Origin: Polytrichum commune
Lineage: Eukaryota > Streptophyta > Polytrichopsida > Polytrichales > Polytrichaceae
Direction of reading: 5' to 3'
Assembly (NCBI GenBank): GCA_950295325.1
Contig: OX485803.1
Coordinates: 45,771,554-45,835,553, forward strand
DNA: 64,000 nucleotides
Below the pieces are notes generated by a model. It made no database searches. It was not told where the DNA came from and worked only from the letters and a program-made list of their open reading frames with translations. Made by a program: the position numbers and the translations under genes. Every line of letters starts with the position of its first letter. The stretch's first letter is position 1. Shown here piece after piece: positions 3,273 to 20,520 of the stretch.

Positions 3273-3276
3273 ATGA
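3273..3276. other. Left 4-bp target-site duplication (ATGA) of the 16.4-kb transposon
   Basis: ATGA lies immediately before the left terminal inverted repeat and is repeated directly after the right one (19712-19715). Removing the element and one ATGA rejoins the LINE sequence as ...TTATCAAATGACTTTTGG..., which keeps the LINE reading frame open across the junction. Confidence 0.85.
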
Positions 3277-3304
3277 AACACTATATTCGTTAAATTGAGA
3301 CTTT
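3277..3304 (+). repeat. Left terminal inverted repeat (28 bp)
   Basis: Starts AACACTATATTCGTTAAATT and is the exact reverse complement of 19684-19711 over 28 bases. A diverged copy of this end and the following 110 bp is found at 12919-13045. Confidence 0.9.
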
Positions 3305-3438
3305 TTGGGCATTTTGAGACATTCACAGAAATAAGAACAAGGATAAATGGAACACATATTGGAGAAAGTTGTAAGATGCGAACACTTTGAAGCGGGTGTT
3401 TAGAACAAGAACCCCGTTAATAACTCAATATTTGGGAT

Positions 3439-3651
3439 TGTTTAGGGTGGGCAATCCAAACCTTAGGCCAAGTTGAAGGGGAAATCTTAAAACATTCATA
3501 TTATCGCACAAAAACTTGTATGAATATGGTTTAGGTAGGGCAATCCAAACCATAGATCATATTGAAGGGGAAATATGTGAACCAATATAATATAACATAC
3601 AAAATATTCCAAACTCATATTTGTGATGGTTTAGGTAGGGCAATCCAAACC
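3439..3651 (+). repeat. Left subterminal repeats with imperfect palindrome cores
   Basis: Three copies of a 24-bp imperfect palindrome (GGTTTAGGTAGGGC then AATCCAAACC) at 3439-3462, 3528-3551 and 3628-3651. Copies two and three are exactly 100 bp apart. Each is followed by a shared segment ending in GAAGGGGAAAT. Subterminal repeats of this kind commonly bind the transposase. The core looks like a decayed relative of the 22-bp palindrome found elsewhere in the element (outer halves GTTT...AAAC). Confidence 0.75.
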
Positions 3652-3817
3652 TTAGACCATATGGAAGGGGAAATCATGTGACACTTATATTATTGCAAAA
3701 AAAAAACATACAAAGTGTGGCATGTAAAATGCATAGCATGCTAACACAACAAATCCATTGGATAGTGCGACCCAAAATGTTCTTGCCTATGGCCCAAAAC
3801 CCTACGCCTACTATGGC

Positions 3818-4120
3818 CTATCTAGCCTCGGAGACTACCTCTTTTTCTTTTGCTTTTTTTTCTTTTGCCTCTTTTTCTTTTGCTGCGGCTTCTTTTGCTC
3901 GCATTGCTTCAACATTCCTGAAAATCTCCACCCCGCGACTATAGCCATTCTTGGGGTGACCGCCATCAATAACACATTTTGGATTCCGTCGGCCGCCCGA
4001 ATTATACGACGAAGAATTCGAATACGATGAAGGGGACTGTCTTGCATTTCTGGTCATGGAGTAGAAACGCTCCAACTCGACGGACGCACTAGCCCGCATA
4101 GGTCTACGGGTGGGAGCAAC
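3818..4120 (-). CDS. Last exon of a minus-strand unit: Lys/Ala/Glu-rich C-terminal tail
   Basis: Phase-0 exon joined to 4256-4609 by an intron at 4121-4255, with donor AAG|GTGAAC and acceptor GCGTTGCAG|GTTGCTCCC. It encodes about 100 residues: a Ser/Asn/Arg-rich part (PSSYSNSSSYNSGGRR), then an alpha-helical tail (EAMRAKEAAAKEKEAKEKKA...) ending VVSEAR and TAG. The tail would be strongly charged and probably helical or coiled. No catalytic domain is visible. The position downstream of the FCP1-like exon on the same strand suggests it is the C-terminus of the large cargo protein, but the connecting junction is unproven. Confidence 0.6.
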   Translation of the reverse strand, partial: VAPTRRPMRASASVELERFYSMTRNARQSPSSYSNSSSYNSGGRRNPKCVIDGGHPKNGYSRGVEIFRNVEAMRAKEAAAKEKEAKEKKAKEKEVVSEAR

Positions 4121-4255
4121 CTGCAACGCGTGAATGCAAGAACACACGTGTTAGTTTAGGGAGGAAGACCCAAACGTGTCACACGTTCATTTTTTAAGTG
4201 CCGGATGATTGTAATGCGCGGTTAACCATGTTTTGGGGGGGGGGGGGGGGTTCAC

Positions 4256-4609
4256 CTTGTCACCGGGGGCGTTCCCGTCGGAGTCGGCGAGGAGGGGCAA
4301 TGCGTCCCGCAAAGGAATAGGAAGGGTGCCACTCTTCGTAGGCCGAGCGTCCATCCGCAGCCGCCGTTGAGGTGTACTACTGCCGCCGGGCCGAGAGGGG
4401 GACGTCCGGACGCATTTGCGATTTATGCCCTTGAGCGGCGACGGGGACGGAGAATGCCGGAAGATTTGCTTGGGTGGGGGGCTATCGACGACGCCGGCGT
4501 CAAGAGGCTCCTTGGAGTAGTCGATGGTGGACGCGGCATCGTAGACGGTCTCGTAGAAGAAGCTCCCCAAGTTTGATTCGCTGACGATCTCAATCGAGGG
4601 CTCCAAACG
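4256..4609 (-). CDS. Internal exon: Pro/Ser/Arg-rich low-complexity segment upstream of the C-terminal tail
   Basis: Open frame beginning after a possible acceptor (CATTAG at 4610-4615) and ending in a good donor at 4255. It reads ESNLGSFFYETVYDAAST near its start, then an SPPPK/SPSPSP/SRPGGSS low-complexity stretch. The in-frame TAG at 4610-4612 excludes upstream extension, so it needs splicing to an earlier exon. A phase-2 join from the FCP1-like exon (for example MYRE-F to ESNLG, acceptor GATCGTCAG) is possible but the donor (GTACGC) is weak. A poly-G run in the following intron (4236-4250) may also be an assembly risk. Confidence 0.5.
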
Positions 4610-4728
4610 CTAATGGCAAAATTAAAACAAACAAAACCCAAGGGGAGGGGGGCAGGGGGGGAGCATGAGAAAATCGATATACAATTGAGGCATACTATAT
4701 CACACACAATGGCACACCATGTAGTATC

Positions 4729-5541
4729 TCAAATGAGTTTATTATATTTCGCGTGAGCGTACAACTCTCTGTACATGTAGTCCTTCGGATCCATGTATCT
4801 TTCGCCTATCGGATTACAACTAAGGAACCGGGGCACGGGTAGTCCGCTCCCCACGAGCGTTTGAATGTACTTAAGTAGGTCTAACAAAAAGCGGTCTCGG
4901 ACCTTCTCGACCGTCCACGTGGGGCAAACGATGAAGTTGGAGGTCGGGTTCAAAATGTTTTTGGAAGCGTTGTCGTCCACCATCAACGTGTTGTCACGGG
5001 TGGGGCGAACGTCGTAGGGACAGCCGACCATGGTCGGACGCTGGTCCCATACGACTGGCTTCAAGACCTTAAGAAATTGGTTTACGGCGGGGTTGTTGGG
5101 CTTCTTCACAACCCTGCCCTCGGGGGTGTACAATGTTTTACAAGAATCCTGTCCTAGGACCAAGCACGGGGGTTGGAGTCCCTTGAAGATGAACTCCACG
5201 ACGGCCTGGGTATTCTCGGACTTCATGGAGCTCCAAATGATCACCCACCATTTGGATAGGGCGACCTGTAGGAAGCGCCGAAGCCACGGGCGGAGGTACA
5301 CTAGCTTGCTTTTGATGTACGCGGGGGGTCCATCGTAGTTGGCGTCCTCGGGCTTGCAGAAAGGCACCGTTGGGACCCTCGGACAATGCACGCACTGGAC
5401 AAGGACCCCGTTGAGGTCTAGCACCAGGAACCGGGTCTTGGGAGGCGAAGGTGGCGAGGGCAAAATCGGGGGGACCACCGCGCTGTCCTCCACATTCCTC
5501 GGAGAGGATCGGTGGGGAGCCGCGACGCTATGCTCCGAACC
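4729..5541 (-). CDS. FCP1/SCP-type HAD phosphatase-like exon with DxN in place of DxD
   Basis: The frame opens at a phase-0 acceptor (TCGCCGCAG|GGTTCGGAG at 5541) and ends KYNKLI-TGA at 4729. From about residue 37 it shows the FCP1-homology layout: FLVLDLNGVLV (HAD motif I), the WWVIIWSSMKS segment (motif II Ser), Lys-rich linker, and TLMVDDNASKN (motif III with paired Asp), then FIVCPTW. Members of this family dephosphorylate phosphoserine proteins such as the RNA polymerase II C-terminal domain. The nucleophile Asp is kept, but the general acid/base Asp two residues later is Asn, so activity is doubtful; plant homologues with DxN are known to me only from memory. The upstream exon ends in phase 0 at 6033, so the two can be joined across an intron at 5542-6032. 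It could instead be an independent gene starting at the GTG or a hidden first exon. Confidence 0.72.
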   Translation of the reverse strand, partial: GSEHSVAAPHRSSPRNVEDSAVVPPILPSPPSPPKTRFLVLDLNGVLVQCVHCPRVPTVPFCKPEDANYDGPPAYIKSKLVYLRPWLRRFLQVALSKWWVIIWSSMKSENTQAVVEFIFKGLQPPCLVLGQDSCKTLYTPEGRVVKKPNNPAVNQFLKVLKPVVWDQRPTMVGCPYDVRPTRDNTLMVDDNASKNILNPTSNFIVCPTWTVEKVRDRFLLDLLKYIQTLVGSGLPVPRFLSCNPIGERYMDPKDYMYRELYAHAKYNKLI

Positions 5542-5989
5542 CTGCGGCGACGAGCGAGAGAAGGCGGCGAGGACTATGTTATGCTATGTCCATCTCAAGC
5601 AGAACGGAAATTTTGTGCAAACACAAGAAGAATTGGACCATTGGTGGCAACAAAAACATACAAGGGAACAACATACATTGGGACACGGATGCAAACATAT
5701 GGGCGCCAAAAATAATAATTTTATTTTTACAAATCTCTATGTACAATTTGATTCGGGGGGGGGGGGGGGCGCGGTGAACGAGGGCATTCACACTATCCTA
5801 ATTCTACATCTACAAAATTGGTTGCGCGTCGCCAAGGTCGAGCGTAGTTGAATGCAGGTGAGACGAAGGGGATCGCGGGGGGGCACGTTGGGGGGAGGGG
5901 GAGCAAGTGTAGACCAGGGGGGGCAGGGGGTGTGCATTTCCTCCTAGCAAGGGGGACACGACCACGCCAACAAGACAGTGACCCAGGAA

Positions 5990-6011
5990 GTTTGGGTCGG
6001 TCGACCCAAAC
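5990..6011. repeat. 22-bp element-specific palindrome in an intron
   Basis: Perfect palindrome except its centre: half-site GTTTGGGTCG followed by its inverse CGACCCAAAC around a central GT. It lies in the intron between the coiled-coil exon and the FCP1-like exon, close to the donor at 6032. Confidence 0.9.
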
Positions 6012-6032
6012 TGGGAGGGCTCAATGTATTAC

Positions 6033-7510
6033 CTCGCCCTGGTCATGTCTCGACGATATGGAAGCCTCCACCGTCCCCGCTGCCCCGCCTCTCTCGCCAC
6101 CACCTTCTCCGACGACGTCAGGAACCTTCTCCTGCAAACGATCGGCATCAGGCCCTTGTCCTAAACCAATCTCCGCATGTGCATCATGCATGGGTTCATC
6201 GATTTGGTTAGGAGTAGAGGTATCACCAGGCCCTTGCAGGCCTTCAACATCTAGCATGGCCGTGTCTAGTTGACACCCATGTTGGTCAAGGGAGGACTGC
6301 GCTGCAACGGGGTTTGGGTCGCCCGACCCAAACTGTCCTGCATCTGGAGAGGGCCCTTTGGACACTACAGTGGATGGTGGGTTTGGGTCGGTCGACCCAA
6401 ACATCCTGGGGTCGTCCGATTGGTGGGGTGGCGCCATGACTATGGGGGGCCGAAGTGGTGGAGGGCCCAAAGGGGAGGAGGCTCCAGAGACGCGCCAGAT
6501 GTTGGGGTCATCCACTTGCTGGACCGGCGCGTACGGAACTTGGTGGGGCCGCATCAAGTGCTGGAAGCTGAAAGACGATTGCGGCACAGGCTGCTGAGGG
6601 ATGCTCTGCGGAGGGAAGCCGGGGGGCAAGTGCGGGAAGGAGCTGGAGGGAGCCACCACCAAACCTTGCGCCCACATTCCTTGTATCACTTGTGATATCA
6701 AGTCGGCGTGGGACGGAGGTTGGGCCATCGCCCTTTGACGCTCCTGCTCCAACAGGAGAGCCCTCAGCTCTGCGACCTCGTTCCGCATTGAGGGTTCTTC
6801 CGCGGCAGCCTTCTGCAGGCGGACTTGCTGCTCCTCGTCTTCTCGTTCGCCTCCTCCACAGTCAGGACCTCGGGCTTCACCCTAACCATGCCAGCGAACG
6901 CTGTCGGGGACGGGGGATCTGATCTTAGCCGTTTGGCGAGCTCAATGTCATCGTCGTCCTCGCTACTTATGGCAATGGTCTCCTCCACGGAGTAGTCGCC
7001 ATACAGCTTCTTCCCCTTTAACTTCCTCCTCTCCCTGAATGTCGCGGTGGCGTCCCTGGAGTACATGTCCCGTGCATCGTCCACAGTCAGGACGGGCACG
7101 AGCTTACTCTGCGGGGTTGCCGCCCGCATCGCCTTCTTCCGTTGAGGGGCTTCGGATTGTTGCGTGAAGCCCGTTGCCCCTTCCTCGACGTCGCCTTCCT
7201 TCTCCGCCTCCTCGTGTTCCTCTTCTTCCTCCTCCTCCTCCTCAACCTCGCCACCTTCTGTGCGGGACGGATTGCCCGGATGCAACCCGACTAGAGGTTC
7301 GGGAACTTGGGTCGTGGCCCTCATGGCCATTTCCTCCGGGTTGATGCGCCTCACCCTATCAAGAGGGTTTTCGCCACCCTGAACAACCTCGTCGACGTAG
7401 CTACCCGGGATCCAATCGAGGATGTCCATCTTCTTCGCCAGCGATTTCTGCACCCTGTAAAATGGCAGATCGCCATCCTCTATGTAGGAGTATATATTCA
7501 GCCCCGACAT
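6033..7510 (-). CDS. Cargo gene exon(s): end of methylase-like fold, Glu-rich region, coiled coil, Pro-rich tail; one frame change
   Basis: Starts at acceptor TTGTGTAG|ATGTCGGGG (7510) in phase 0, directly continuing the methylase motif I of the previous exon (AAM-MSGLNIYSYIEDG). It then has an acidic run of Glu (about 7210-7250), nuclear-signal-like KRLRS, and a heptad-like segment EEQQVRLQKAAA...AELRALLLEQERQR (about 6830-6740), then Pro/Gln-rich sequence ending HDQGE at donor GAG|GTAATA (6033). The frame changes near 6830-6900. Either one base is missing (the paralogous-looking LTVEEANE runs into the coiled coil), or a 74-nt intron (ATG|GTTAGG to CTGCAG|AAG, both phase 0) is spliced out. 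Two 22-bp palindromes lie inside the coding sequence and are read as FGSTDPN and FGSGDPN. Confidence 0.65.
6312..6402. repeat. Two 22-bp palindromes inside a coding exon
   Basis: Copies at 6312-6333 (centre GCCC variant) and 6381-6402. Both are in frame on the minus strand and add FGS-x-DPN heptapeptides to a Pro-rich region. Their length (22) plus flanking bases leaves the frame open, so they look like tolerated insertions. Confidence 0.85.
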
Positions 7511-7584
7511 CTACACAATCCAAGTTATAGGGAAATTAGAATTTGTCGAGGCAATCACATAAACAAGACTAAGTACAATGTGTA

Positions 7585-7642
7585 GTTTGGGTCGGTCGAC
7601 CCAAACCTGCAAAGAGCCTAGTTTGGGTCGATCGACCCAAAC
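7585..7642. repeat. Two 22-bp palindromes in the second intron of the cargo gene
   Basis: Copies at 7585-7606 (centre GGTC) and 7621-7642 (centre GATC, a perfect palindrome). They fill much of the 160-nt intron 7511-7670. Confidence 0.9.
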
Positions 7643-7670
7643 TGCTTACGAGCTATAGAAAGTCACTTAC

Positions 7671-9002
7671 CATAGCAGCATAGACAGGTTTTGAGCCTCC
7701 GAAGACGTTGAAGATGCAGTCCCCTCTCCTCGTCAGCGTCCTCATCATTCTCATGTAAAATTCCATCCGCAGCTCATCTGCAGGATAGTTCGCGTATTTA
7801 GCCTCGTCGTAGAGGCATTTGTTCGCACCCAACCCTTCTGGAACTTGGAAGAGTTTGTCCATCCGGGATATAGGGTGGTTCGGCACCTTCAGCAACTCCG
7901 CTTTGTACACGAAGTACAAACACAAGACGTTGACGAACTTGGTCTTCTTGTCCTTCAACGTCGTGTAAGCCCCCTCCGCCGGTGCGGCGATGTAGTGAGA
8001 CTTGGACACTGCATACTCCGGCTGCAGTTTCCGGACAAGCTCGTACACCTGCTCCGCCCTTCTATCCTCGACTATCCAAAGCCAGATATCTACCTCCCTG
8101 AACTTAGGGCTTGCATAATCGACGAACTTAGTTAAGAAGGGGTCGTAGAAGAGGGTGCTCATCGTGCCCTCAAATGAGCTTCCAAGAATATTTCTAAAAT
8201 CAATCATCCCAAAAGGAAAGCGGTCCCTTGCTTTCGTCCTTATCGCCATTCTGGCGTCTTGACCTGGCCAGCCCTGAATTTTCAAAGGCTCGAAGGTGAC
8301 AAGGTTGAAGTAAGCGTCCCCTTCAAACTGGACAATCTTCTTCTCCTTGATGAAGTTCGAGAACGCACGCGCTGTGTGATCCGGAAGCGCCCGGTTCTTC
8401 CCACCCTTCACCATCTTGGCCCGCAAGAAGTCGTCCCCCGCTTCCCTTATTAGAGCCGCCATGGAGGCACTGGTGAACTTATATTCATCTTTGAATGCTC
8501 TCCAGTTAGCCCCATGAACCTCGCCGTCCACGACAATATTCCTCTCTGGCACCAATTTATGCAGCTCCTGCACGATAGTCGTCTTCTTTTTCCTGTTCTC
8601 CATCCATTCCTTCATGGTGTAGCATGAAGGAACGAAGGATTTGGGCTTTACGAAGACAATCTTCGGGTGCACCCAGCACCTCTTGGCCGTGGGTGCCACG
8701 TGCAGGATGTGCGATGCCGCCTTCTCCACCTCCGTCTCTGACAGCCCTTGAAGAGTTCTAAAGAACTCTCTCACGAGAGGCTTCATCTGCTTGAAGCGCG
8801 AGGCCAGGCTGAAGAAAGCGCCAGTGTCAGGGTCGATCAAATCCCCCGTCTCGTGCTTTTCAAACACGGTTTTCCACTTCCTCCAAACTGAGTCCGATGC
8901 TGTAATCAAGTAAATCTCCCCCTTCAGGTCGCTGTATTTCTTCTGCTTGTGGCTCGAATTATCAATGGAGGAGAATTTGTTGATCATTTGGTATTTGAAA
9001 TC
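7671..9002 (-). CDS. Cargo gene exon 2: beta-class N4/N6 DNA methyltransferase-like domain, catalytic motifs degenerate
   Basis: A 444-codon phase-0 exon between acceptor GTTCACGTGCAG|GATTTC (9002) and donor GCTATG|GTAAGT (7670). The final residues GDCIFNVFGGSKPVYAAM, continued after splicing by MSGLNIYSYIED, match the SAM-binding motif I of beta-class methyltransferases (D-x-F-x-G-S-G...A...G...E). Upstream, YDPFLTKFVDY followed by EDRRAEQVYELVRKLQPE resembles the motif IV (DPPY/F) to helix order of the same fold, and motif IV preceding motif I is the beta-class order. Key positions differ: Asn for the first Asp, GGSK for GSG, YDPF for DPPY. The protein may bind but not methylate. The N-terminal half (SDLKGEIYLITASDS...) has no fold I recognise. 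The neighbouring ParB-like exon strengthens the call, because ParB-like plus methylase pairs are familiar in phages. Confidence 0.65.
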
Positions 9003-9092
9003 CTGCACGTGAACAAAACAGAACATTTGAATGCGTGTTAGTTAAGTACATGTGATTTCCAAACCATATCATGACCAACATCTACAACAAGA

Positions 9093-9406
9093 GTTTGGGT
9101 CGGTCGACCCACACTGAAAAAAAACACAAGACTGCAACAGTTGTTTGGGTCGATCGACCCAAACTAAAAAAACACAAGACTGCAACAGTTGTTTGGGTCG
9201 ATCGACCCAAACTAAAAAAACACAAGACTGCAACAGTTGTTTGGGTCGATCGACCCAAACTAAAAAAACACAAGACTGCAACAGTTGTTTGGGTCGATCG
9301 ACCCAAACTAAAAAAACACAAGACTGCAACAGTTGTTTGGGTCGATCGACCCAAACTTTAAAAAAACACAAGACTGCACCAGGAGTTTGGGTCGGTCGAC
9401 CCAAAC
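9093..9406. repeat. 48-bp tandem array built on the 22-bp palindrome, inside intron 1 of the cargo gene
   Basis: Seven palindromes start at 9093, 9143, 9191, 9239, 9287, 9335 and 9385. The inner units have a 48-bp period: the palindrome with centre CGATCG plus a constant 26-bp spacer (TAAAAAAACACAAGACTGCA then ACAGTT). The array fills the intron 9003-9415. Reading it in any frame gives long open frames such as WVDRPK or LGRSTQT repeats, which are not genes. Confidence 0.95.
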
Positions 9407-9415
9407 AATACTCAC

Positions 9416-10741
9416 CTCCCACTTGGGATTCTTGTCCTTCGCATTCTCCCTCTCCTTGGGAGGCCTACCATAGAACTCCCACACCTCCCGCGAGGCCATG
9501 ATATTCCTTATCCAAGAAGCTTGATAGGCCCTCTTCTTGTTTCCCATATTGAAGTACCGGGAGATGTCGCTGAGCTTAGTCTCGTCGTCAGACCACACCA
9601 CCAGTGCCTTCCAAACCTTCAGCTTTTCCTTCTGATTGTTGGGATCGTCCCACTCATTCATGAGTTGGATTTTCTTGGATGCCTCCACGGTGTGTTGGCC
9701 GTCTATCAGCCAAAAATCGCCCTTCTGAATTGTTGGCCACATTTCAGGTGTAGGCATTTTCTTGAGACCCTGTGGCATCACTACAATCGTTTGCCTGTCG
9801 TCTTTAAACTGCTCGCAAACGATCTGCGCGATTATCCAGTCAACGTAGGCGTCCTCCTTTGCCCGGACACACTTCTCCGGTGGCGCTAGATGGCACTGGC
9901 TGATGTTCACGTCGAACTTGAAATCCCTGCCCATGAAAAAACAGTGGGAGCATTTCGTCGTGAAATTGTTCACGATTTTCTGCAACTCCCCTGCATCCAC
10001 CTCTTCGCCGGGCTTCGGCATGCGCAACTCCGGTGAGACTGGCTCGTCAGTCATCACAGATGACTCTCTCGCCCTCTTGGATGGAGTTGTTTGACGGCTC
10101 CCAGAAGGTGTAGGGGTCTCACTATTCGTAGGTGTTTGGGAGGGAGTGGTCCTACGCGAGTCAGCCAGTACTGGTAGCGGCATCCTCACCGATTGAGGTC
10201 TTGACGACCCTGCTCCTTCCTCTGTGGGAGCTTTCCGCCTCACAGGTTGCTGTGATTTGGTTTTGCTTTGCAGGCCCCTGTTCAGCACGGTTATTGCATG
10301 TTTTAGTTTTGTGAACCGGCTTGAGACCTTGGTATTCGATGTACTCCCATCGATAAATATTGTCTCCGGCTTGATAACTTCCGGTTCGACACAGGACTCT
10401 CTTGCATAGAGTGCGTCGAAAGGCTCGGAGAACTGGTGCATGAACATATGCGCGTTCTGCACAGCCGAGTTCTCGAGGATGACGTCGGTATAGTCTCCAA
10501 GAGACTGTACCGATGCGACCTCCCATCCTGTAAGAGTCGCCCAGGTGTGTTTCTCCACGGTTCCCACCTTGACAACAAAAATCATTTTGTATGTTGAGGC
10601 TTTGACTACTTGAATAGACCAAGCGAGGACAAGCCCGTCCTTAGAGGAATAGGAGTCATCCTGCGGGGTTTCGTGCTCCTGCCACAACATGTCCGGCGCA
10701 GGCATGAACCACCTTTCGCCGGGTCTTTTCTTTGGAGCCAT
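9416..10741 (-). CDS. Cargo gene exon 1: ParB/sulfiredoxin-like domain protein
   Basis: Starts ATGGCTCCAAAG at 10741, right after an acceptor-like TTTTTTTACAG, so a 5' UTR intron is likely. It ends KNPKWE at a perfect donor (GAG|GTGAGT, 9415). The 442 codons comprise an N-terminal region of unknown fold (PAPDMLWQEHETPQ...), a Ser/Thr/Pro/Arg-rich linker with KRARE, and a C-terminal block from about residue 265. That block has the ParB-like order: ISQCHLAPPEKC, a helix, TIVVMPQGLKK, then GDFWLIDGQHTVEASKK (about residues 343-358) and KALVVW. DGxH-x-x-x-A is the signature of the ParB/Srx fold (DGhHR in bacteria); here Thr replaces the usual Arg. In phages and plasmids this fold appears next to DNA methylases. 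The spliced product continues in phase 0 into the methylase-like exon. Confidence 0.7.
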
Positions 10742-10767
10742 CTGTAAAAAAATAATGCGCAAAGTTA

Positions 10768-11235
10768 GTTTCGGTCGTTCGACCCAAACATCTACGACAT
10801 GAATAGGTTTAGGTGGATTGTGTATTTATATATTTCAGCATCATTTGTAATGATAATAAGAATGTTGTGATTATTGGGTGGATTTGCATTTTATATTGTT
10901 TGTGACATGCAGGATTCCTTGATACTTTTCCTTGATGCATTCCTTGATTATTATTTTGGGTTGATGTGAATTTTATATTGATGCAAAAATCATGGATTTC
11001 TTTATGAGTTTATAATTAGAAGACTTAGTTTGGGTCGTTCGACCCAAACATGATGCTTTGTGTTATATTTTGGTCGTTCGGCCCAAACATGATGCTTTGT
11101 TTTGTGTTTGGGTCGAGCGACCCAAACAAGGGGCTGTGTTTGGGACTGTGTTTGGGTCGGTCGACCCAAACAAGAGGCTGTGTTTGGGTCGGTCGACCCA
11201 TACAAGAGGTTGTGTTTGGGTCGTCTCCCCAAACA
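10768..11235. repeat. Cluster of seven palindromes upstream of the cargo gene start
   Basis: Copies at about 10768, 11028, 11067, 11106, 11150, 11182 and 11214, each 22 bp, with centres GTTC, GAGC, GGTC and degenerate forms. They sit 27-494 bp upstream of the ATG at 10741, in what is probably its 5' UTR intron or promoter. Confidence 0.9.
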
Positions 11236-12918
11236 GTATTATTTTAATATATTTTTTAAACTTGGCATCTAGCATATACAATGCTTATGCATTGTGTATG
11301 CTACAAAACCGTGAATATACAAACACATATTGGTTAAAATAAAACACAATACCTTTCAAAGATGTTGTGCAGACAATTTGGAGTAGAGCAGGTTGTTCTT
11401 CCAATAATTCTCAATATCAAACAAACTGTGAGAAAGTTCAATGAGAAACTTTCAAACAAGTATCAACTCTCTCAAATAGCTCTTGGATCTCTCAACCAAC
11501 TCCTGAATCTCACACAGAACTACTGAATCTCTCAAAAGACTTCGAAATGTCTAAACCAACTCCTGAATCTCACACACAACTACTAAACCTCTCAAAAGCC
11601 TTCGAAATGTCCAAACCAACTCCTGAATCTCACACACAACTACTAAACCTCTCAAAAGACTTCGAAATGTCTAAACCCACTCCTGAATCCCTCACAAAAC
11701 TACTGAATCTCTCAAACGACTTCGAAAACTCTCAAACAACTCTTGATACTCTTAAAGAACTCTTGAATTTCACAAGCACTCCTAAAACTTCCAGTACAAA
11801 CACCTGGACCTCCCAAACCGAAGCTTTATCTACTACCGAATGTTCTACTAACTTCCTTCAGCACTTTCCAATACTCTTCAACACTCTTTTGCTAACTTCC
11901 TTCACTCTCACGCTCTAAAACCTTCCTCCGTATGTTTCTGTTTCTTTCAAAACTCTTCCTAACTTCTAAGATTGCACAAGGGCTATTCTATTGAAGAGCA
12001 AAAGAAAGGAGGGAAAAGAAGATGCAGAAGAAAGCAATGAACGCGGGAGAATGAAGGGTTAACCTACACCAAGCCTGATTCGCCGCGGCGCTTTGCGAAA
12101 GCGGCGCTTCAGGAGAGGCGGCGCTTCCAAGCGAGGCGCGGAGAGAGAGAGAGAGAGAAAGAAATGAGAAATGCGACGGTTGGGGTTTTGTTTACCTCGG
12201 GCATTGGCCCCCAACCGCATGAATAGGGTGCCCACAGGATTAGGGCACCCACGGAAACAGGGTTATAGGGAACCCTAAAACCTAAATCATAACGCTTGAC
12301 TCTAAACCCTTAGCGGGCCTACCTCTTTAAGAGTACATAGGCTATTTGCCTCATAGCATAGGTTGCATTCTACAATATCAACTTTTTGTAAGTTGAAAAC
12401 CTTTTGAGTTTGTAAGTTCCTCGCCAATTGCCTCAAAACTAAATTTTAGTAGGTTAAAATCCTTCATATCTTTTAATGTTGTAGGTTTTTAAATCAAAAT
12501 TTGAGTACTAAGTGGGATCCTTCAAGTTGGCAGGAATTGAACCTGGCTAAGCTTTTCACCACGTTTGAAGGCCAAGGATTAACCAAGTCTTTTTTAAAGA
12601 GTTGATTATAAGTTTTGAAAGGTTGCTAAAATTCAAATGAGTTTAAGGGTGAAAGTTCTCACCATGTTCTCATTCAACCTCTACTCTTCCTGCAAGATAT
12701 AGCCTAAAGATATGTACTTAGGCCAACTAATTTCCCAATTTGAAGAAGGATGAATGGCTAAAATCCTTTCTTTTAAAAAAAATTTAGGCAAAATTTCCTA
12801 AATGTTTTTATCACATAGGTTGATATCCTATGTTTTTAAATTGTCCATAGGCTCTTTGTCCTACACTTTCAAAATTTTATAGGCTAAGTCACTAATTTTG
12901 TAGGCTGCATTTGTTTTA
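11236..12918. other. Noncoding centre of the transposon, left part
   Basis: No supported gene. Holds a 63-bp minisatellite (11470-11760, listed separately), then a purine-rich stretch (11990-12060) and a GC-rich patch with repeated GCGGCGCTT and a (GA)n run (12080-12170). On the minus strand these read as a CT-rich leader and may be the promoter/5' UTR of the cargo gene. The rest to 12918 is AT-rich with nothing I recognise. Confidence 0.4.
11470..11760 (+). repeat. 63-bp minisatellite
   Basis: About four to five diverged units containing CTTCGAAATGTCTAAACCAA and CTCCTGAATCTCACACACAA. The period is a multiple of three, so one frame stays open (11547-11918) and would give 21-residue repeats (MSKPTPESHTQLLNLSK...). 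With no start context, splice signals or known domain, I read it as a noncoding satellite. Confidence 0.75.
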
Positions 12919-13175
12919 ATCGGTATATTCGTTAATTTGGGATTTTTTCGGCATTTTGAGAAAGTTACAAATATAAGAACATGGATAAAATCGCACGTAC
13001 ATTGGAGAATTTTGTAAGATGCAAATACTTTGAAGCGGGTGTTCATATCAAGAACGCAATTAAGATCTCATATGAAGATGGTTTAGGTAGGATGACCCAA
13101 ACATTACACTATGTTGTTGTGGTCCATATATTAATTTGAGAGAAGAGAAAATCTCAAATTAGCGAATTTTAGGGT
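12919..13175. mobile_element. 257-bp non-autonomous relative of the big transposon, nested inside it
   Basis: Its left 115 bp align with the left end of the large element (TTCGTTAATTTGGGATTTTT... through GAAGCGGGTGTT, compare 3277-3410). Its right 45 bp align with the right end (CCATATATTAATTTGAGAGA... compare 19660-19711). The middle has one palindrome-like core (GGTTTAGGTAGG...GACCCAAAC, about 13079). The two ends are diverged, so this is an old copy. It looks like an internally deleted, MITE-like derivative. Confidence 0.75.
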
Positions 13176-13689
13176 TTAGGTTCTTTTGGACCCTGCTCTA
13201 AACCCTTATTAGTTTTTTCAAAAGAACTATGGAGTACCCTAAGGTGCTACATAAAATGTGTTATTCTACAAAACTAACCATTTATATAGCCAGCGCATTC
13301 TTACAACAAAACTTTATGCTAAACTAATACTTATCCCCTACTTACATGACACCATACCCTAAATTTTCCAAAATCATTGAAGGCATTGGTTTCTCTTTTG
13401 TTTGAGCATGTTAGAAAATTTAAACCATATAATTGCGTTATATTTAACGATGTAACCATTCACATTTAGTCCTTACCAATGATGCCAACAATTCACACGA
13501 TATTGAATGAAAAAAAAGAAGATTACCCACACCCCCCAACATGTGGAACAATTTAGAATAATTGAGTGTGGAGCCTAATAAATGAATACCTTCCCCAACT
13601 GCATTTTGCAAGGGTTTTGAAATGCACGATCCTTATTTGAAAATGCGAACATGCTCAAGTTTTAAGTACATCCCTTAGATCGTGACTTT

Positions 13690-14515
13690 CACGAATCACA
13701 TAGTCGCCAATAAATCATGGTTCATGATTTATTTAATATATAGATTGTGATATAAGAGTAAATGGGATAAGCACAACATCAAATGAAGCCATTCAAGCAA
13801 TCATGTTGTTATTCCCTGTTCCTTCCATGTATATTAGATGATGGCGCAAGATAAAATAGATGTTGTTTGTATATGGGGGCATCAGTGAACCACAACTACA
13901 TTTGGTGTTAGGGTTTAGGGTTTAGGAGATAGGAGATAGGGTTATAACATATTAATCTATCCAATGTCAATGTATAACATTGTCTTACTCGTGAGAAGAG
14001 TCTTATAGGAAGGTTATAGTGAAGACGATGTTGATTATGTTAATTTGTTATTCGAGACGTTTAAACGCGATATATTGATTGGTCGTGTGTTTATTCAAAT
14101 AACATGAAATATTGTGGATGTTAATAGGGGCTAGGGGTCCAACTTTGGATGTTTCGCTCACTTTAGGGAATCACATATTAGTCGCTAATAAACCATCGTT
14201 CATGATGTATTTAATATATGGAATGTCATGTAAAAGTAAATCGAAGAAGCACAACATCATGTTGTTATTCATTGTTCTCTCCACGTGTATTAGATAATGG
14301 AGGAAGATATAACAGATATTGTTTGCATAATATGAAGAAGAGTCTAATCGGAAGGTCATAGTAAATACAATCTTGATCATGTTAATATGTTATATGGGAC
14401 GTTTAAACATGATATCCTAATTGGTTTTGTATTTAGTCAATGCGTATTTCATGTTGTGGATGTTATAAGGGTTTAGGGTCCAATCTTGGATGTTTTGCTC
14501 TCACACATTAGTAAA
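13690..14515. repeat. Diverged tandem duplication of about 0.48 kb
   Basis: Blocks near 13693-14160 and 14168-14510 share AATAAATCATGGTTCATGAT / AATAAACCATCGTTCATGAT, the GTGTATTAGATRATGG segment, and GACGTTTAAAC...GGATGTT. The second unit has internal deletions. Nothing coding is seen. The flanks 13176-13690 and 14515-14667 also hold no gene. Confidence 0.7.
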
Positions 14516-14667
14516 CTTGAAGTGAACTTGAGGATGGATTCAAGTAACATTAAAAGATTGAACTAGAAAGGGACATTGGTAGTTAGTATCCCCTTAACAA
14601 CGTCCACATACATTCGTCATTGCCACTCTTGCATGCGAGATAATAGAGCAAGGCTCTAGGGTTTAGG

Positions 14668-14812
14668 GTTTAGGGGGGACAAATAAATAATTCTATTCAT
14701 CATGACAATGGCCTCAAGCCTTGGAAACTCTCTCATAATTGCAGCCTCCAAATGGCCCAAACCCCACCTAAATAGGTTTACACTTGCAAGCATTGAATGG
14801 AGTTGTGTTTGG
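14668..14812. mobile_element. Internal fragment of the Tourist-like MITE seen at 60668-61195
   Basis: Shares TTCATCATGACAATGGCCTC, AAGCCTTGGAAA and CATAATTGCAGCCTCCAAAT with 60812-61070, but lacks that element's terminal repeats and part of its middle. Confidence 0.7.
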
Positions 14813-15065
14813 GTCTACATATTGGTTAAAATATACCTTGATGACACTTGAAAAAATTAATGTGGCCGCCACCCTTCCTCCCAATGGCGTATGTCATATC
14901 CACACAAAACAAAACAAATAGATTAAATAACATAGACTAAGTCATATGACGGCTGGGGTATCAGAGGGGCATTGATAGATGCGCATTTTTCTACTATAAA
15001 CAGAAAACGGGGAATTCTGTCGGGAGGTTTGAAATAACCTCTGCAAGAGAAGAAGGCGGGGAAGG

Positions 15066-15135
15066 CATCCAATGACTAAGTCTGGGAAGCGGAGGTGGAT
15101 AGTATAAAGGGGCGCACCCCCCAAAAGTCGGTCAT
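15066..15135 (+). promoter_or_regulatory. Likely core promoter of the transposase gene
   Basis: TATAAAGG at 15103-15110 is preceded by a CCAAT-like ATCCAATGAC at 15068. A pyrimidine-rich TTTTTTTCTCTTCTCCC follows at 15133-15150, a typical start region about 30 bp downstream. This would give a 5' leader of about 970 nt to the ATG at 16111, probably containing an intron. Confidence 0.5.
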
Positions 15136-15413
15136 TTTTTTCTCTTCTCCCGCTGTCGAATTCGTAGAGAGAACTCTTAGTAGGAGCTGTACTTCAAGGT
15201 TCGTGCATGCTGCCGTTCATGAGCACTTATCCATAGCATGCAAGTTCATGAGCACCTATCCACACCATGCAAGCCCACCGTGAACTTTGCAATGAGCTCA
15301 AATTCAACACACCACGCAATATCCGCCGCATTATACGCCGGATTTTGTGGTGTACTTGGGCGAACCTTCACCTTTACACTAGTGTTGGCGGGTTTTGAGT
15401 CTGACCCTATGAG

Positions 15414-15934
15414 GTTTGGGTCGACCGACCCAAACCTGTCCACTAGTGTGTTAGGGTTTATGTCTGACCCTTAATATGTTTGGGTCGGTCGACCCAAACC
15501 CCAACCCCAGTGTGTTAGGGTTTTTGTCTGACCCTTATCAGGTTTGGGTCGACCGACCCAAACCTGTCCACTAGTGTGTTAGGGTTTATGTCTGACCCTT
15601 GTGAGATTTGGGTCGGTCGACCCAAACCCCTACCCCAGTGTCTTAGGGTTTTTTTCTTGACCCTTATCAGGTTTGGGTCGACCGACCCAAACCACTACAT
15701 GGTGTGGGTGGATGTACTCTTATGAGGTTTGGGTCGGTCGACCCAAACCCCTACCCCAGTGTGTTAGGGTTTTTTTTTCTGACCCTTGTCAGGTTTGGGT
15801 CGACCGACCCAAACCCCTACCTGGTGTGGGTGGATGCACCCTTGTGAGGTTTGGGTCGGTCGACCCAAACCCCTACCCCAGTGTGTTAGGGGTTCAGTCC
15901 GACCCTTATGAGGTTTGGGCCGGTCGACCCAAAC
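15414..15934. repeat. Array of nine palindromes upstream of the transposase gene
   Basis: Copies start at 15414, 15478, 15542, 15606, 15671, 15727, 15793, 15849 and 15913, spaced 56-66 bp. Centres alternate between GACC and GGTC, so the units alternate in orientation. The spacers share TGTGTTAGGGTTT and TCTGACCCTT. The array lies between the promoter and the start codon. Confidence 0.95.
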
Positions 15935-16110
15935 CCGCACCAAAATAATTTCTGGAACTTGTTTTGGACTTGCACACAGTGTTGGGAGTTCACATTGTAG
16001 TTGTGTTGGAAATGTCTTCATCCTCGGTGTCCCCATTGATCATGGTGTCTTGCATTTTCCGATATTTGATTCTTTTGGACCCTTACATTCTTTCCATGTG
16101 TGTAGGCGCA

Positions 16111-19100
16111 ATGGAGGGAGTTGGTGGAAGAGGGGATTCCTTCTCTGACGACATGGGCAACACCCAATCTACGTCTGGGGATGAGCTAGACATTGTTGGG
16201 GAGGATAGTTTTGATGACAGTGCAGATGAAGGTGACTTGGGGAGTCCTTCGCCATCTGCCCCTTCTTGCCCCACTGTGGAATGTGCTGGGCTTTCACGAG
16301 CTTCATGGGTGAATTTGGATGTAGTACTTGTTAATGACAGTGGAGTTGCTGTGGCGGAGGGTATTTGTCGTAACACACATCCACAAGATTGCATTGATGA
16401 AAACCCCCTTGGCACCGAGGACGTTGGAGTTGTTATATTGGAATCACTCGTACATTCTGAAGTGAATCCAACTCATAGGTTCTCGTTGCGAAGGTGGCCG
16501 TTGAGGAATGTGACAATTGATGGGGTTAATTTGCATGAGCATGAGCGACGACACATCCAAATCCAAGAAGAGCTCCAAGCAAACATTTGGCCACGCAAAG
16601 GCCTACGGAAGTACGATACATTGGCACGTCCTACTCCGTCTGCAAATGAGTGTAAACGTCAAAGGTTGCTTTGTGAGGAGTCCATTAGAGAAGTTGCCAC
16701 AAAGGATTGTTGTGTACATCGTTGTTGCCAATTGTTCCCAAGGGATAAATTGAAGGCCATCCGCGAGGAAATGTGGCTTGGAGATTTCCGTCTAAGATCC
16801 ACCAAAAAGCTTGATGTCCATAGGGCGATACATGTGAACGGAGCGGGTCGCAAGGTCATCACCCTTGAGAGCATAGACGTGTGTTGTACCGCATGGTACA
16901 TCATTCACGGTGTGTCGAAAGCGGAATTTTATAGACAAGCCGCGTATGCCAAGGAAGGCCGCCGGTCCCGTCACCATGGGAATACGGGCTTAAAGAAACC
17001 AAGGGAAGCAACGAGACAAGCAATCGCCACTTTGGCAACCATCATTGTCCCCCTTGCCGATGCAATGCCGCACAAAACACGCACACTCGCAACCGGTGAA
17101 AAGGTTGTGGAGAAGGTTCTTCCTACAGGCACGAAATGGAAAAACATATTGTTGGACGTAAACGCAGTTGGCGAGAAGGCTGGGTTGGACCCTATTTCGT
17201 TGTCGAAACTGAGTGCAATAAAAAAATCTCACTTTAGCGAATACATCACAAAAAGACGAGGCGACAAATTTGCCCGTTGTTCCAAATGCGAGAAGTTGAA
17301 ACGCCTTCGAGATGCACACACGATGGGGACAGAGTCCTATGCCGCACATCAAATGAACTATTTCAAGCATGTGAACATGCAAGAGGCACACCGTAATGAT
17401 TACTACACAAATAGAGCTTTGTCCATCTCTAGGCCTTTGGAGGTCCTTACAATCATCCATGACAAAATGGACCATGCCAAAACAGCCTCACCATGTTTTG
17501 CAAATCGAATCAAAGCCACAGACGGCCTTTTTAAGCTTCATGTATCGGTTACAGGTGATTTCGATAACAATTGCATTGCATTACCTAAACACAAATTTGT
17601 GCTTTAGGTTTGTACTTGGGGCCATAGATGTACACCATGTGAATTTTTTGGTGTTATAGTTGAATATTAAACCATTGGGTTGGCTTTACAGGGATGATTG
17701 CACATGGACATGGTGATGTCAAGTATGCTCATTATGCTCTTGATTTGTATCCGGCGGATTCAAACCACACGATAGGGTCATTTGCAAAGCTTTTACGTGA
17801 TTTGGAGAAACCGCCGTCCTATTTATCAAGATTGTTATTTGAAAACTCGGGATCAACACCTCTATATGAAGCGGTCTTGGATGGAAGAGATGTATGCGTG
17901 CACTCCTTGCCGGAGCCACCAAGTGAAGATGTGATTGCCAAGAATTTGCCCCCAACTCTGCGTGTCCAATTGGACAATTGTGCGAAGGACAATAAAAGTA
18001 TATATGTTTTTGCATATTGGTCGTTGTTGGTTGCGAAAGGCATTTTCAAGGAGGTTTTTGTGTCCTTTCTATTGGTAGGCCACACGCACGACGATATCGA
18101 TGCATCTTTTGGGCGGTGGAGCATGAAGTTGCGCGAGGAGGATTTTCCGACAATCCCATTGTTGATGAAGTCGTACATGGATTTGGAGAACATTCCCGTC
18201 ATCCCCCATATGATCGAGGAGGTTCCAGACTTCAAGGCATTTATAGAACCGTATATTCGAAGCGGAGCTCACCGATTGATCGGACATACGAAGGCACAAC
18301 AATTTCGGTTTTACGTGCGTGACGATGGTGTCCCCGCCATGCAATACAAGTTGTTGTGCACGTCACAAGACTGGAGCCCGCCGGAGGGTCTCCTTGTATG
18401 GCGTGTTGATGGAGAGGGAAGGACGATGTTGCCTGACGGAGAGCCTAAGCCTTGCAAACCAATACTAATGAAGAATTTGGAGGACATTTGTAAAGGCATA
18501 TCAGGCTTCATACAATATTGGGAGAGTTTGAGGGTAGCGGATGTTGGTGGATCGTGTTGGCTTCGTTACGGAAGTTGGATACAATATTGGACACGTGTTC
18601 GTGGTGCTTTGGCAAACCTTCATCAAGATACACCCCTTACTTTAAGGCATGGGTTTTGGCCACAAACACGTGTCAATGTACAAGCTTCGGAGGCTAGTCT
18701 TTTGGGAAATGGAGAGGTTCGAGAGGAGTTTGATGTGGACGACCATTACGTGGGGCCTGCTAGTAGTCGTCCGCCACCATCTTTCCGCATTGCAGTGGAT
18801 TGTCATGAAGGTTATATGCTCATTTTGCGTCCTGGAGATGAGACATATGCAAAGCCAGTGTGGGTGGCAAGAGCTTTGTCGAAACCAAATTTTGTAACTT
18901 CCAGCCCTCATTTTCGACAAATACAAGTAGAGTACTACCGACCGATAGCACGGAATGAAGATGTTGTTCGGCATTATACAGGCTGGGATACAAACCAACA
19001 CTTTCGGTGGAAGGTGGATTCTGAGCACGGTCCATCTTGGGTAGATACAGATTCCATATTCATAGCATGGAAACCACGGAAAAATCATAGTGGATCAGTG

Positions 19101-19178
19101 TCCATCCCTCAAAAGTACATAATTTTTGCAAAAGACAACCTTGCTCGGATCGCAGAAGAAGCAACCCACGTTGAATGA
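16111..19178 (+). CDS. DDE/RNase H-fold transposase (DUF7869-like), two exons
   Basis: Exons 16111-17554 and 17692-19178, with intron donor ACAG|GTGATT and acceptor CTTTACAG|GGATGATT; the join is phase 1 and gives 976 residues. The start ATG (MEGVGGRGDSFSDD) follows an acceptor-like TGTGTGTAG at 16097-16105; the frame is open further upstream, but without a better start. An acidic N-terminus is followed by CCVHRCCQLFP and a long basic helical region (GRRSRHHGNTGLKKPREATR), a probable DNA-binding part. Three acidic positions fit a DDE triad: IIHDKMDHAK (about residue 450), VQLDNCAKDNK (about 575) and VGHTHDDIDASFGRW (about 612). The D-N-C...N-K and GHTH-x-x-x-D layout is that of the DUF7869 family. 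It would cut and join the element ends. The ORF is unbroken, so the element may be recently active. Confidence 0.82.
17555..17691 (+). other. Intron of the transposase gene
   Basis: 137 nt, GT-AG, AT-rich. Splicing restores VSVT-GMIAHGHG, joining the two halves of the catalytic domain between the first and second acidic residues. Confidence 0.85.
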
Positions 19179-19199
19179 GAAGTTGGTAGGATTGTGTTA

Positions 19200-19683
19200 G
19201 CATGATTATAGTGTAATATGTAATTCGACGAATATATATTACTCATATGTGTGCTCCTCAAACTTGGGGCAAAGTTTGGGTAGAACTTGCGAATGCTATA
19301 TTGTTTGGGGTTGGATGAATATCCATTTACTATATTTCAATACAGTTGTGAAGTTCATTTTTTTATTAAGTTTGGGACTAAATTTTCCATTGAAGAAAAA
19401 TGCATTTATTGCATGTACTTTGTATGTTGCAATGTCTATATTTTATTGACCATGCTAATAATAGAAATCCTTTTATATGTTTTTTGGGTGAAACTAGTTT
19501 GGAGTGCTCTACCCAAAGTGTTTTTGTTGATGAAGTTGGTGTTGAGTGCTCTACCATATGTGCTTATATGTCCACACCCCATAGATTTGGGATATTAGAA
19601 CATATAATATATTTGAGATTGTTCGCAATATAGTTTCGGAACACGGAATGTTGTTTGATCCATATATTAATTTGAGACTAGAG
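19200..19683. other. Right subterminal region of the transposon
   Basis: AT-rich, no gene. It contains repeated TGGAGTGCTCTACCC / TTGAGTGCTCTACCA (19499-19555) and, next to the right end, a hairpin TTTGAGAC...GTCTCAA (19671-19692). Confidence 0.5.
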
Positions 19684-19711
19684 AAAGTCTCAATTTAACG
19701 AATATAGTGTT
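19684..19711 (-). repeat. Right terminal inverted repeat (28 bp)
   Basis: Exact reverse complement of 3277-3304. It is followed immediately by ATGA (19712-19715), the second copy of the target duplication. Confidence 0.9.
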
Positions 19712-20520
19712 ATGACTTTTGGAATAACCCAGTTATCACAAAAAAACAAAAAAACATGCCTAGTAAAATTTCGAACCGGACAATACATGGGACATGCTCG
19801 AAAACAACTATTCTTTGGTAGAAATGTAGACCCATCCAATGCATGCCCTATTTGCAATTCATTAGAATCAGACACATGGCTCCATGTACTCCTTAAATGC
19901 AAACAACAACACATACATGCACTAATAATGAATAGACATAACAAAGTGGTATGGGAAATACGCAAACTTCTTGTCTCAAACAAAATAACAAAACACTACA
20001 TACTTATGAATGCAGGCACATACAATGAACTACCCCAAGAAAATACAGTACCACCATGGTTATTACCATGCACATGTGGCACCCAAAGATGTCATTGCAA
20101 CGCTAGGTTCAAACATGACATACTATGCATCTTAGGCCACCCATACAATTCCCCACCACCAGAAGCACCTACACCGGAAATCACTATACAATTCATAGAA
20201 GTTACATACTGCAACGATAGGTTTTCCTGCTGAAACAAGAGAGAGAAAATTTACAAAATATCAACCACTCATTAACAATATCATAGCAAGAGGATGGAAT
20301 ACAACTCCACTCATAGTACTAGCATCAAGTGCCAGAGCCACAACTCACATCCCCTCAATGAAAGAACTAGAAACAAAGCTTAAACTCCCTACACCACAAA
20401 TCCGGAACACATTCAAGCAAATCAACGTAATCGCCACACAATATGCACACTCAATATTGATACATAAAAGAAGGATAGAAAATCGACAACCTATCATTGA
20501 CTTACAAAACCATATCTAAA
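19712..20520 (+). mobile_element. 3' part of the split LINE with zinc-knuckle domain
   Basis: The plus-strand frame to 20233 carries CLVKFRTGQYMGHARKQ and then CPICNSLESDTWLHVLLKCKQQHIH, the Cys/His motif found at the C-terminus of LINE RTs (zf-RVT type). The sequence continues the A/C-rich style of 1-3276. Excising the transposon makes the RNase H frame run across the junction (LSND-FWNNP) before one frameshift in an A-rich tract near 19740. The end is near 20520-20570, where CT-rich and poly-C sequence follows. Confidence 0.8.

Follow-up and report, generated by a model that had tools for sequence, protein, structure and literature searches.

Organisation of the locus

The stretch of Polytrichum commune DNA examined here (64,000 nucleotides; the window) carries one large mobile element, the features of which are collected in Table 1. 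Its target duplication has the same length, 4 bp, in 11 of 11 end pairs tested, and the terminal 25-mer (up to two mismatches) is found in the genome 595 times in forward and 601 times in reverse orientation, as against none for the reversed control. The accessory gene on the reverse strand is one part of this giant terminal-inverted-repeat DNA transposon, which is present in hundreds of copies (~600) genome-wide. The other strand carries an intact putative transposase of the DUF7869 type, the two exons of which join into a single frame of 981 aa. Literature searches found no paper on DUF7869.

Table 1. Features of the Polytrichum element (positions are those of the window).
Feature	Position	Strand	Remarks
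Left target site duplication	3273..3276		ATGA
Whole transposon	3277..19711		16,435 bp; defined by terminal inverted repeats and 4-bp target duplication
Left terminal inverted repeat	3277..3304	+	28 bp; AACACTATATTCGTTAAATTGAGACTTT
Separate small gene	3818..4609	-	two ORFs (4187-4609, 3818-4150), both with counterparts in L052 and the start of L045
Accessory gene, last exon	4729..5541	-	FCP1/NIF-like domain; stop common to window copy and two relatives
Palindrome, intron 3	5990..6011
Accessory gene, exon 3	6033..7510	-	Glu-rich and coiled-coil; frame broken in window copy, by eye near 6830
2 palindromes within coding exon 3	6312..6402
2 palindromes, intron 2	7585..7642
Accessory gene, exon 2	7671..9002	-	444 aa; methylase-like motif I at 3' end by eye only, without profile support
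7 palindromes, intron 1	9093..9406
Accessory gene, exon 1	9416..10741	-	442 aa; N-terminal region and ParB-like region (FWLIDGQHTVEASKK); ParB-like match weak
6 palindromes 5' of accessory gene	10768..11203
Single palindrome between genes	13081..13102
9-palindrome array directly 5' of transposase	15414..15934
Putative transposase, exon 1	16096..17554	+	start codon picked by likeness to L037
Putative transposase, exon 2	17692..19178	+	DUF7869, PF25273, E = 5e-42
Right terminal inverted repeat	19684..19711	-	28 bp
Right target site duplication	19712..19715		ATGA

A target duplication of 4 bp is characteristic of Sola1 elements. The Polytrichum element has this duplication, the giant size and the opposite-strand accessory gene in common with the Sola1 superfamily, though its transposase is known only as Pfam DUF7869. 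Sola1 is listed for Physcomitrella in a table of PMC9033089. Accessory proteins of the ParB and methyltransferase kind are already known from algal transposons, as PMC12477816 describes a ParB-like plus N4C/N6A methyltransferase protein for the giant element Ectocarpus Sola1-1_Ec32 and cites green and red algal cases. Compared by description, Sola1-1_Ec32 and the Polytrichum element both encode a large accessory protein on the strand opposite the transposase; a ParB-like part, plausible on the Polytrichum side, is a further likeness, and a methylase-derived part may be one too. The algal protein has 1104 aa, whereas that of Polytrichum is encoded by ~1,650 codons in four exons. The Polytrichum element differs from the algal cases in its FCP1/NIF-like C-terminal domain, a methylase part that is unrecognisable by profile, family-specific palindrome arrays, and residence in a plant genome. 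LEAFY-type genes at three loci (6 exon matches) put this genome in the plant (streptophyte) lineage.

Structure of the accessory gene

The four exons are joined at three phase-0 junctions: the GT donors are at 9415, 7670 and 6032, and an AG acceptor immediately precedes each of positions 9002, 7510 and 5541. This chain on one strand, proposed in the sequence-only reading, is upheld by the open exons and by recurrence of the layout. A diverged copy, L037+L038, has it (the three exons compared are 77-79% identical in DNA and 76-85% in amino acids), and so has the relative L052, whose amino-acid identity is 38-45% in the three parts that were compared. For the Glu-rich/coiled-coil exon the proposal stands in part: its junctions recur and L038 reads through the region as one ORF, but in the window copy a frameshift splits the exon into two frames. 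The FCP1 ORF needs an upstream exon, because no Met precedes the domain in any of the three copies read (window, L038 and L052). It ends at a stop at 4729-4731 that is the same in the two relatives read (...KYNKLI, ...KFNKLI and ...KINKLI). Hence the gene does not extend to 3818, as had been supposed, and the region beyond is a separate small gene with counterparts 3' of the FCP1 ORF (42% and 41% identity, E = 5e-14 and 1e-8, single comparisons).

The accessory gene is under purifying selection, with dN/dS values of 0.047 for exon 2, 0.18 for the FCP1 exon and 0.043 for the ParB part of V1 versus V2. Exon 1 was scored at no fewer than 89 genomic places, each with at least 90% identity over the main match, and exon 2 is without a stop in 68 of the 92 places scored, by our count.

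Domains of the accessory protein

The FCP1-like domain is the best supported. The last exon matches Pfam NIF with E ~8e-14 to 9.6e-14 and 51.8 bits, far above the cut-off of 21.8, in agreement with the original assignment, and the relative gives 56.4 bits; against solved structures, the exon had 0 matches at E 0.001. The consensus catalytic motif of FCP1-like phosphatases is DxDx(T/V). Although the domain is common to these phosphatases and the Polytrichum protein, the latter has DLNGV in place of DxDx(T/V) in all three copies compared, which makes phosphatase activity doubtful.

The ParB-like identity of the exon 1 region, claimed earlier, is plausible but unproven. PHROG 1033, 'ParB-like partition protein', weakly matches window exon 1 (E = 0.056) and one of the seven related exons (E = 0.13), at overlapping profile positions, but ParBc is not demonstrable by Pfam. 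Neither Pfam nor NCBIfam gave a ParB match for window exon 1, nor did Pfam for the seven related exons. When the region was compared by profile with the sister family, 2 of 100 shuffles equalled the score in one comparison and 1 of 60 in another. Two AlphaFold models from single sequences were unusable (mean pLDDT 36 and 30), being too poor for a fold search. A literature search on ParB in moss transposable elements returned no paper that looked relevant.

The claim of an N6_N4_Mtase-like domain in the window protein could not be sustained. Exons 2 and 3 joined have no methylase match in Pfam, NCBIfam and PHROGs give no methylase homology, the best tblastn hit of the protein to phages has E = 2, and the score of the window profile against phage DNA methylases (79 plus query) was reached by 90 of 100 shuffles. 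Methylase identity of the window protein is thus not supported (STATISTICALLY). By eye, the end of exon 2 and the start of exon 3 (GDCIFNVFGGSKPVYAAM|MSGLNIYSYIED) have the look of motif I across the splice, and hhalign to the sister family places its best or second-best alignment at this region, with 15 of 100 shuffles equalling it. N6_N4 DNA methylases have a catalytic motif like (D/N/S)PP(Y/F/W), and visual inspection of exon 2 in four family members revealed no such motif.

The sister gene family of the same genome can, by its profile matches, be regarded as methylase-derived. Joined exons of sister genes match Pfam N6_N4_Mtase with E = 2.6e-5 and 3.1e-4 (24.7 and 21.2 bits, under the curated cut-off of 26.7) and an NCBIfam DNA methyltransferase with 0.0017, also under the cut-off; the family profile finds phage methylases at E = 1.1e-9, a score reached by 0 of 100 shuffles. 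Where the phage query has DLPYG as its catalytic motif, the sister genes have DLPEG, DIPES or FPDG. A DNA-marking enzyme, which would bind its own transposon and methylate it (N4C or N6A), has been proposed for Ectocarpus Sola1-1 (PMC12477816). The methylase-derived sister family fits such a role, but it is quite unlikely for the window protein, whose own region fails the phage-methylase profile test and in which the catalytic motif is not recognisable, that of the sister genes differing from DLPYG.

Palindrome arrays

Arrays of a 22-bp two-fold palindrome, GTTTGGGTCG-NN-CGACCCAAAC, lie in the introns and the intergenic region of the element, a feature that the sequence-only reading had missed. 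The window has 28 sites (up to three mismatches), all inside the element between 5990 and 15934, and the genome contains 9,231 exact copies, with none for the reversed control. Among 103 sites in three copies, the core carries 1.90 bits/base against 0.17 in the flanks, the core value being raised by the choice of sites with no more than three mismatches. Among the 100 palindrome matches listed, 77 fall in copies of this transposon family (assigned by reading), another 22 fall within or next to a second family, which also has a ParB-like gene, and 1 is unassigned. Control stretches (4 x 10 kb of the window and five phage loci of ~3 kb) yielded one palindrome family of 3 sites.

TnpA of Spm binds repeats and so brings the element ends together. 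An element-encoded protein with repeated sites in cis might suggest a similar accessory role in transposition here, but this is improbable, as the sites are internal rather than subterminal, ~2.7 kb separating the nearest from one end of the element and 3.8 kb from the opposite end. Palindromic sites and a ParB-like motif also recall partition or tethering, in which ParB would spread from parS-like palindromes and cluster or segregate the copies. This is very improbable for an element integrated in chromosomes, given also that no ParA-like ORF was noticed in the ORF lists read and that the ParB assignment is unproven.

Relative V (L052, L053) shares the exon layout but has a palindrome of its own, TTTACGAACG-NN-CGTTCGTAAA, which differs from that of the window element. 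It occupies corresponding positions, 5' of the accessory gene and within its introns 1 and 2. Its 42 sites carry 1.66 bits against 0.10 in the flanks, and 4,680 exact 18-bp cores occur genome-wide (control, 0). In L053 the N-terminal part of the transposase is 64% identical to that of the window element over 374 residues, as compared with 38-45% for the accessory protein, which has therefore diverged faster than the transposase. The second family encodes a barely alignable ParB-like protein, yet carries the same palindrome as the window element, and a strict pairing of protein and site is thereby blurred. Right-end sequence of this family has 199 forward and 219 reverse matches; no left-end partner was seen near loci X, Y or Z. 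Its assignment as a MULE was rejected: no transposase domain turned up, and the one match, to SWIM, was weak and fell below the cut-off (E = 0.043).

A palindrome array of its own is also found in another type of DUF7869 element, where no accessory gene was seen among ORFs of at least 110 aa over 12.7 kb on the 5' side of the transposase. No palindrome family was found at sister locus P38649. At P52157 and P36464 (4 sites each) the palindromes lie within tandem units, and since these units are near-identical, conservation of the sites is uninformative.

Proposed function

The accessory product is a putative sequence-specific DNA-binding protein by virtue of its ParB-like region, and the two-fold symmetry of the 22-bp site makes a dimer probable. 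Its targets would be the arrays that lie in promoters and introns of the genes carried by the element itself, and binding would keep these genes transcribed, by activation or de-silencing. The FCP1-like part may recruit or retain the transcription machinery rather than act as an enzyme, other partners being an alternative. Our tentative view, which falls somewhat short of being probable, is that this giant plant DNA transposon encodes, in the accessory protein, an activator or anti-silencing factor that acts at the element's own sites in a manner comparable to VANC. An element-encoded DNA-handling or anti-silencing protein had been put forward as a candidate before, and it is the best available reading, helped by the palindrome arrays.

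In VANDAL elements, VANA is the transposase. According to PMC5735166, the VANC target motifs form tandem repeats, which occupy introns of VANC21 and VANB21 and also lie upstream of VANA21. Thus, in the VANC system of these Arabidopsis Mutator elements, as here, motif arrays occupy accessory-gene introns and the region upstream of the transposase, and they differ between related elements (PMC5735166). The likeness is one of placement; the VANC motif is the short YAGTATTAY and the Polytrichum site a 22-bp palindrome, and the transposase domain, DUF7869, is not that of VANDAL.

The arrays 5' of both genes fit a repressor equally well. FCP1-like domains generally act on transcription complexes, which, like the sites 5' of the transposase and of the accessory gene, would suit a self-limiting repressor that binds these arrays and those in the introns and lowers element activity as copies rise. 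This is nevertheless unlikely, as ~600 copies are present, many with an open exon 2 (68 of 92 places scored), and arrays in introns are unusual for a simple repressor.

Returning to the activator or anti-silencing reading, we consider it possible, and hold it loosely, that at least two apparently unrelated plant transposon types use ParB/methylase-derived proteins, each reading a private palindrome with CpG in the half-sites, and that these evolved independently of VANC. Protein and palindrome, changing together between families, would then form a swappable addressing code by which an element's own copies alone are protected from silencing.

It is still an open question how transposons evade silencing and yet spare the host ruinous damage, VANC being the one well-studied plant case. 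The likely target sites in Polytrichum are repeated thousands-fold and differ between related elements, so that the specificity of protein for site is open to direct test, and the system could also hint at what the ParB/methylase proteins of algal transposons do.

Structure and genomic context of the transposon

The accessory gene lies within a transposon (table below) that ends in a 28-bp inverted repeat, AACACTATATTCGTTAAATTGAGACTTT, and is flanked by a 4-bp duplication, ATGA. Perfect 4-bp duplications, with letters differing between pairs, were present at all 11 end pairs read, comprising that of the window element and 10 others hand-picked from 100 listed end matches and read as 144-bp stretches. 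Across the 408 Mb genome, the 25-base terminal pattern (≤2 mismatches) occurs 595 times in forward and 601 times in reverse orientation; its reversed control gave 0 matches. As the left flank matches RVT_1 reverse transcriptase (2.2e-10) and RNase H (1.8e-13), a LINE-like retrotransposon seems to have been the landing site. The 981-aa plus-strand protein includes a Pfam DUF7869 domain (5e-42) and is likely the transposase.

Features of the window element and of a related element type
Feature	Location	Strand	Remark
Whole transposon	3277-19711		contains the gene of the sequence-only reading
Accessory gene exons	10741-9416, 9002-7671, 7510-6033, 5541-4729	-	
Putative transposase exons	16096-17554, 17692-19178	+	single unbroken 981-aa frame
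Palindromes	between accessory gene and transposase		16, including 9 directly 5' of transposase
Palindromes	intron 1		7
Palindromes	intron 2		2
Palindromes	intron 3		1
Palindromes	inside coding exon 3		2
Third DUF7869 element type	L136+L044 (C2:3665050-3683000)		

All three introns of the accessory gene are GT-AG and phase 0, which confirms the four-exon chain proposed in the sequence-only reading, and the same layout was found in A610 (L037+L038), a diverged copy of the element, and in V1 (L052), one of two copies of a distant relative, V. The window and V1 proteins are 38-45% identical over the parts compared; exon 1 of V1 includes one stop. In all three copies read (window, A610 and V1), the FCP1-like ORF has no methionine before the domain and stops at the same point. 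The ORFs at 4609-3818 thus represent a separate gene, and the proposed extension of the accessory gene to 3818 was not borne out. Their V1 counterparts, also 3' of the FCP1 ORF, are 42% and 41% identical. Because exon 3 is split into two frames in the window copy and a single ORF spans that region in A610, the full-length accessory protein is probably not functional from the window copy.

Between the window and A610, dN and dS were 0.086 and 1.84 for exon 2 (ratio 0.047), the ratio was 0.18 for the FCP1 exon, and dN was 0.089 for exon 1, where dS was not computable. The ParB-like parts of V1 and V2 (L053) gave a ratio of 0.043. These low ratios indicate that the accessory exons are proteins under selection rather than chance ORFs. 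Judged by identity, the accessory protein diverges faster (38-45% to V1) than the transposase, whose N-terminal part is 64% identical to that of V2 over 374 residues, as expected if the accessory protein tracks a changing site. Since dS between the window and A610 is 0.47 for the transposase exon and 1.84 for accessory exon 2, the elements may be of mosaic origin, different lineages having swapped their accessory gene and arrays.

Domains of the accessory protein and its sister family

The predicted FCP1-like domain was recovered as a Pfam NIF match (9.6e-14) well over the cut-off. FCP1-like phosphatases usually have the nucleophile motif DxDx(T/V), whereas DLNGV takes its place in all three copies. 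The best ParB-like sign is FWLIDGQHTVEASKK, and a ParB-like partition PHROG matched exon 1 of the window copy at a weak E of 0.056. The same PHROG was seen, again weakly (E = 0.13), in one of seven related exons scanned (two from V and five from the sister family, a second repeat family with a ParB-like gene); the other six gave families of unknown function or no match. The score of the ParB-like profile against the sister family was equalled by 2/100 and 1/60 shuffles.

The methylase-like domain claimed for the accessory protein was not supported by profile comparison with phage methylases and shuffles. In contrast, the sister family is methylase-derived on profile evidence. Its profile matched 79 phage methylases plus query at E = 1.1e-9 (0/100 shuffles), with Pfam methylase scores below the curated cut-off. 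A protein search with its ParB-like exon gave at least 150 scored matches among 1,226 candidates (42-100% identity), and seven loci were read: X, Y, Z, P68607, P36464, P52157 and P38649. A methylase-like ORF noted by eye at L041 2474-2851, LDLILADIPESLPVPG, had no match in Pfam; this stretch is nested in the sister family and also contains a 24-site palindrome family.

Palindromic arrays

All 28 sites of the palindrome GTTTGGGTCG-NN-CGACCCAAAC (≤3 mismatches) in the window lie within the element. Exact copies number 9,231 genome-wide (control 0), with 21 in the window element, 36 in A610 and 27 in B10973, a third copy; the arrays of the latter two are differently spaced. Across 103 sites of the three copies, conservation averages 1.90 bits in the core and 0.17 in the flanks. 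The two sites of coding exon 3 are at 6312 and 6381, and A610 and B10973 each have a site pair that is likewise 69 bp apart and lies towards the corresponding end of the element. A CpG is present in each half-site. The observed/expected CpG ratio of the element is 0.80, vs 0.62 and 0.47 for the window sequence to its left and right, which fits less methylation decay but would also fit mere youth or coding content. Separately, a 20-bp-period repeat array lies at 11445-11918, in an ORF reading SKPTPESHTQLLNLS.

The exact palindrome was absent from the V1 and V2 stretches read. These share a palindrome of their own, TTTACGAACG-NN-CGTTCGTAAA, at the corresponding positions (upstream of the accessory gene and within its first two introns), with 1.66 bits in the core vs 0.10 in the flanks over 42 sites, and 4,680 exact 18-bp cores genome-wide (control 0). 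Further arrays were found at P68607 (GGGTTTCG-GTAC-CGAAACCC, 8 sites), X (GTGTTTCG-GTGC-CGAAACAC, 24 sites), Z (CCCTGTGCGTTAACGCACAGGG, 11 sites) and a third DUF7869 element type (CCACGGGTG-NN-CACCCGTGG, 9 sites). In this last element, 7 sites lie upstream of the transposase ORF, and the transposase shares 45% identity with that of the window. Because these four arrays sit mostly in tandem units of regular spacing, conservation counts for less here than it does for the window and V palindromes.

X and Z carry the window element's palindrome too, the third element showed no accessory gene among ORFs ≥110 aa over the 12.7 kb upstream of the transposase, and no palindrome family was seen at P38649; all three count against a clean protein-site code. 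In the unrelated-looking second family, the window element's palindrome lies upstream of the ParB-like gene (L041 5339-8008 and L047 3111-3401), as if sites of the window element had been captured; L047 also has a further palindrome of its own.

Novelty and proposed role

Giant transposons with ParB-like plus methyltransferase accessory proteins are already described in PMC12477816, which cites Iyer 2011 and Petroll 2025. Our literature search returned no report of such accessory proteins in land plants, of an FCP1-like fusion in them, or of family-specific palindromes at conserved positions.

With its two-fold symmetry, the 22-bp site would suit a DNA-binding dimer, for which the candidates encoded by the element would be the transposase, the accessory protein and the small-gene product. 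Because the sites are concentrated in promoters and introns, away from the element ends, a role in expression or chromatin control is more probable than one in end synapsis. In Arabidopsis, the motif arrays bound by VANC are located both within introns and 5' of the transposase, and this protein causes loss of DNA methylation (PMC5735166, PMC10398659). Tentatively, the accessory protein could well act as an own-site activator or anti-silencing factor of its element.
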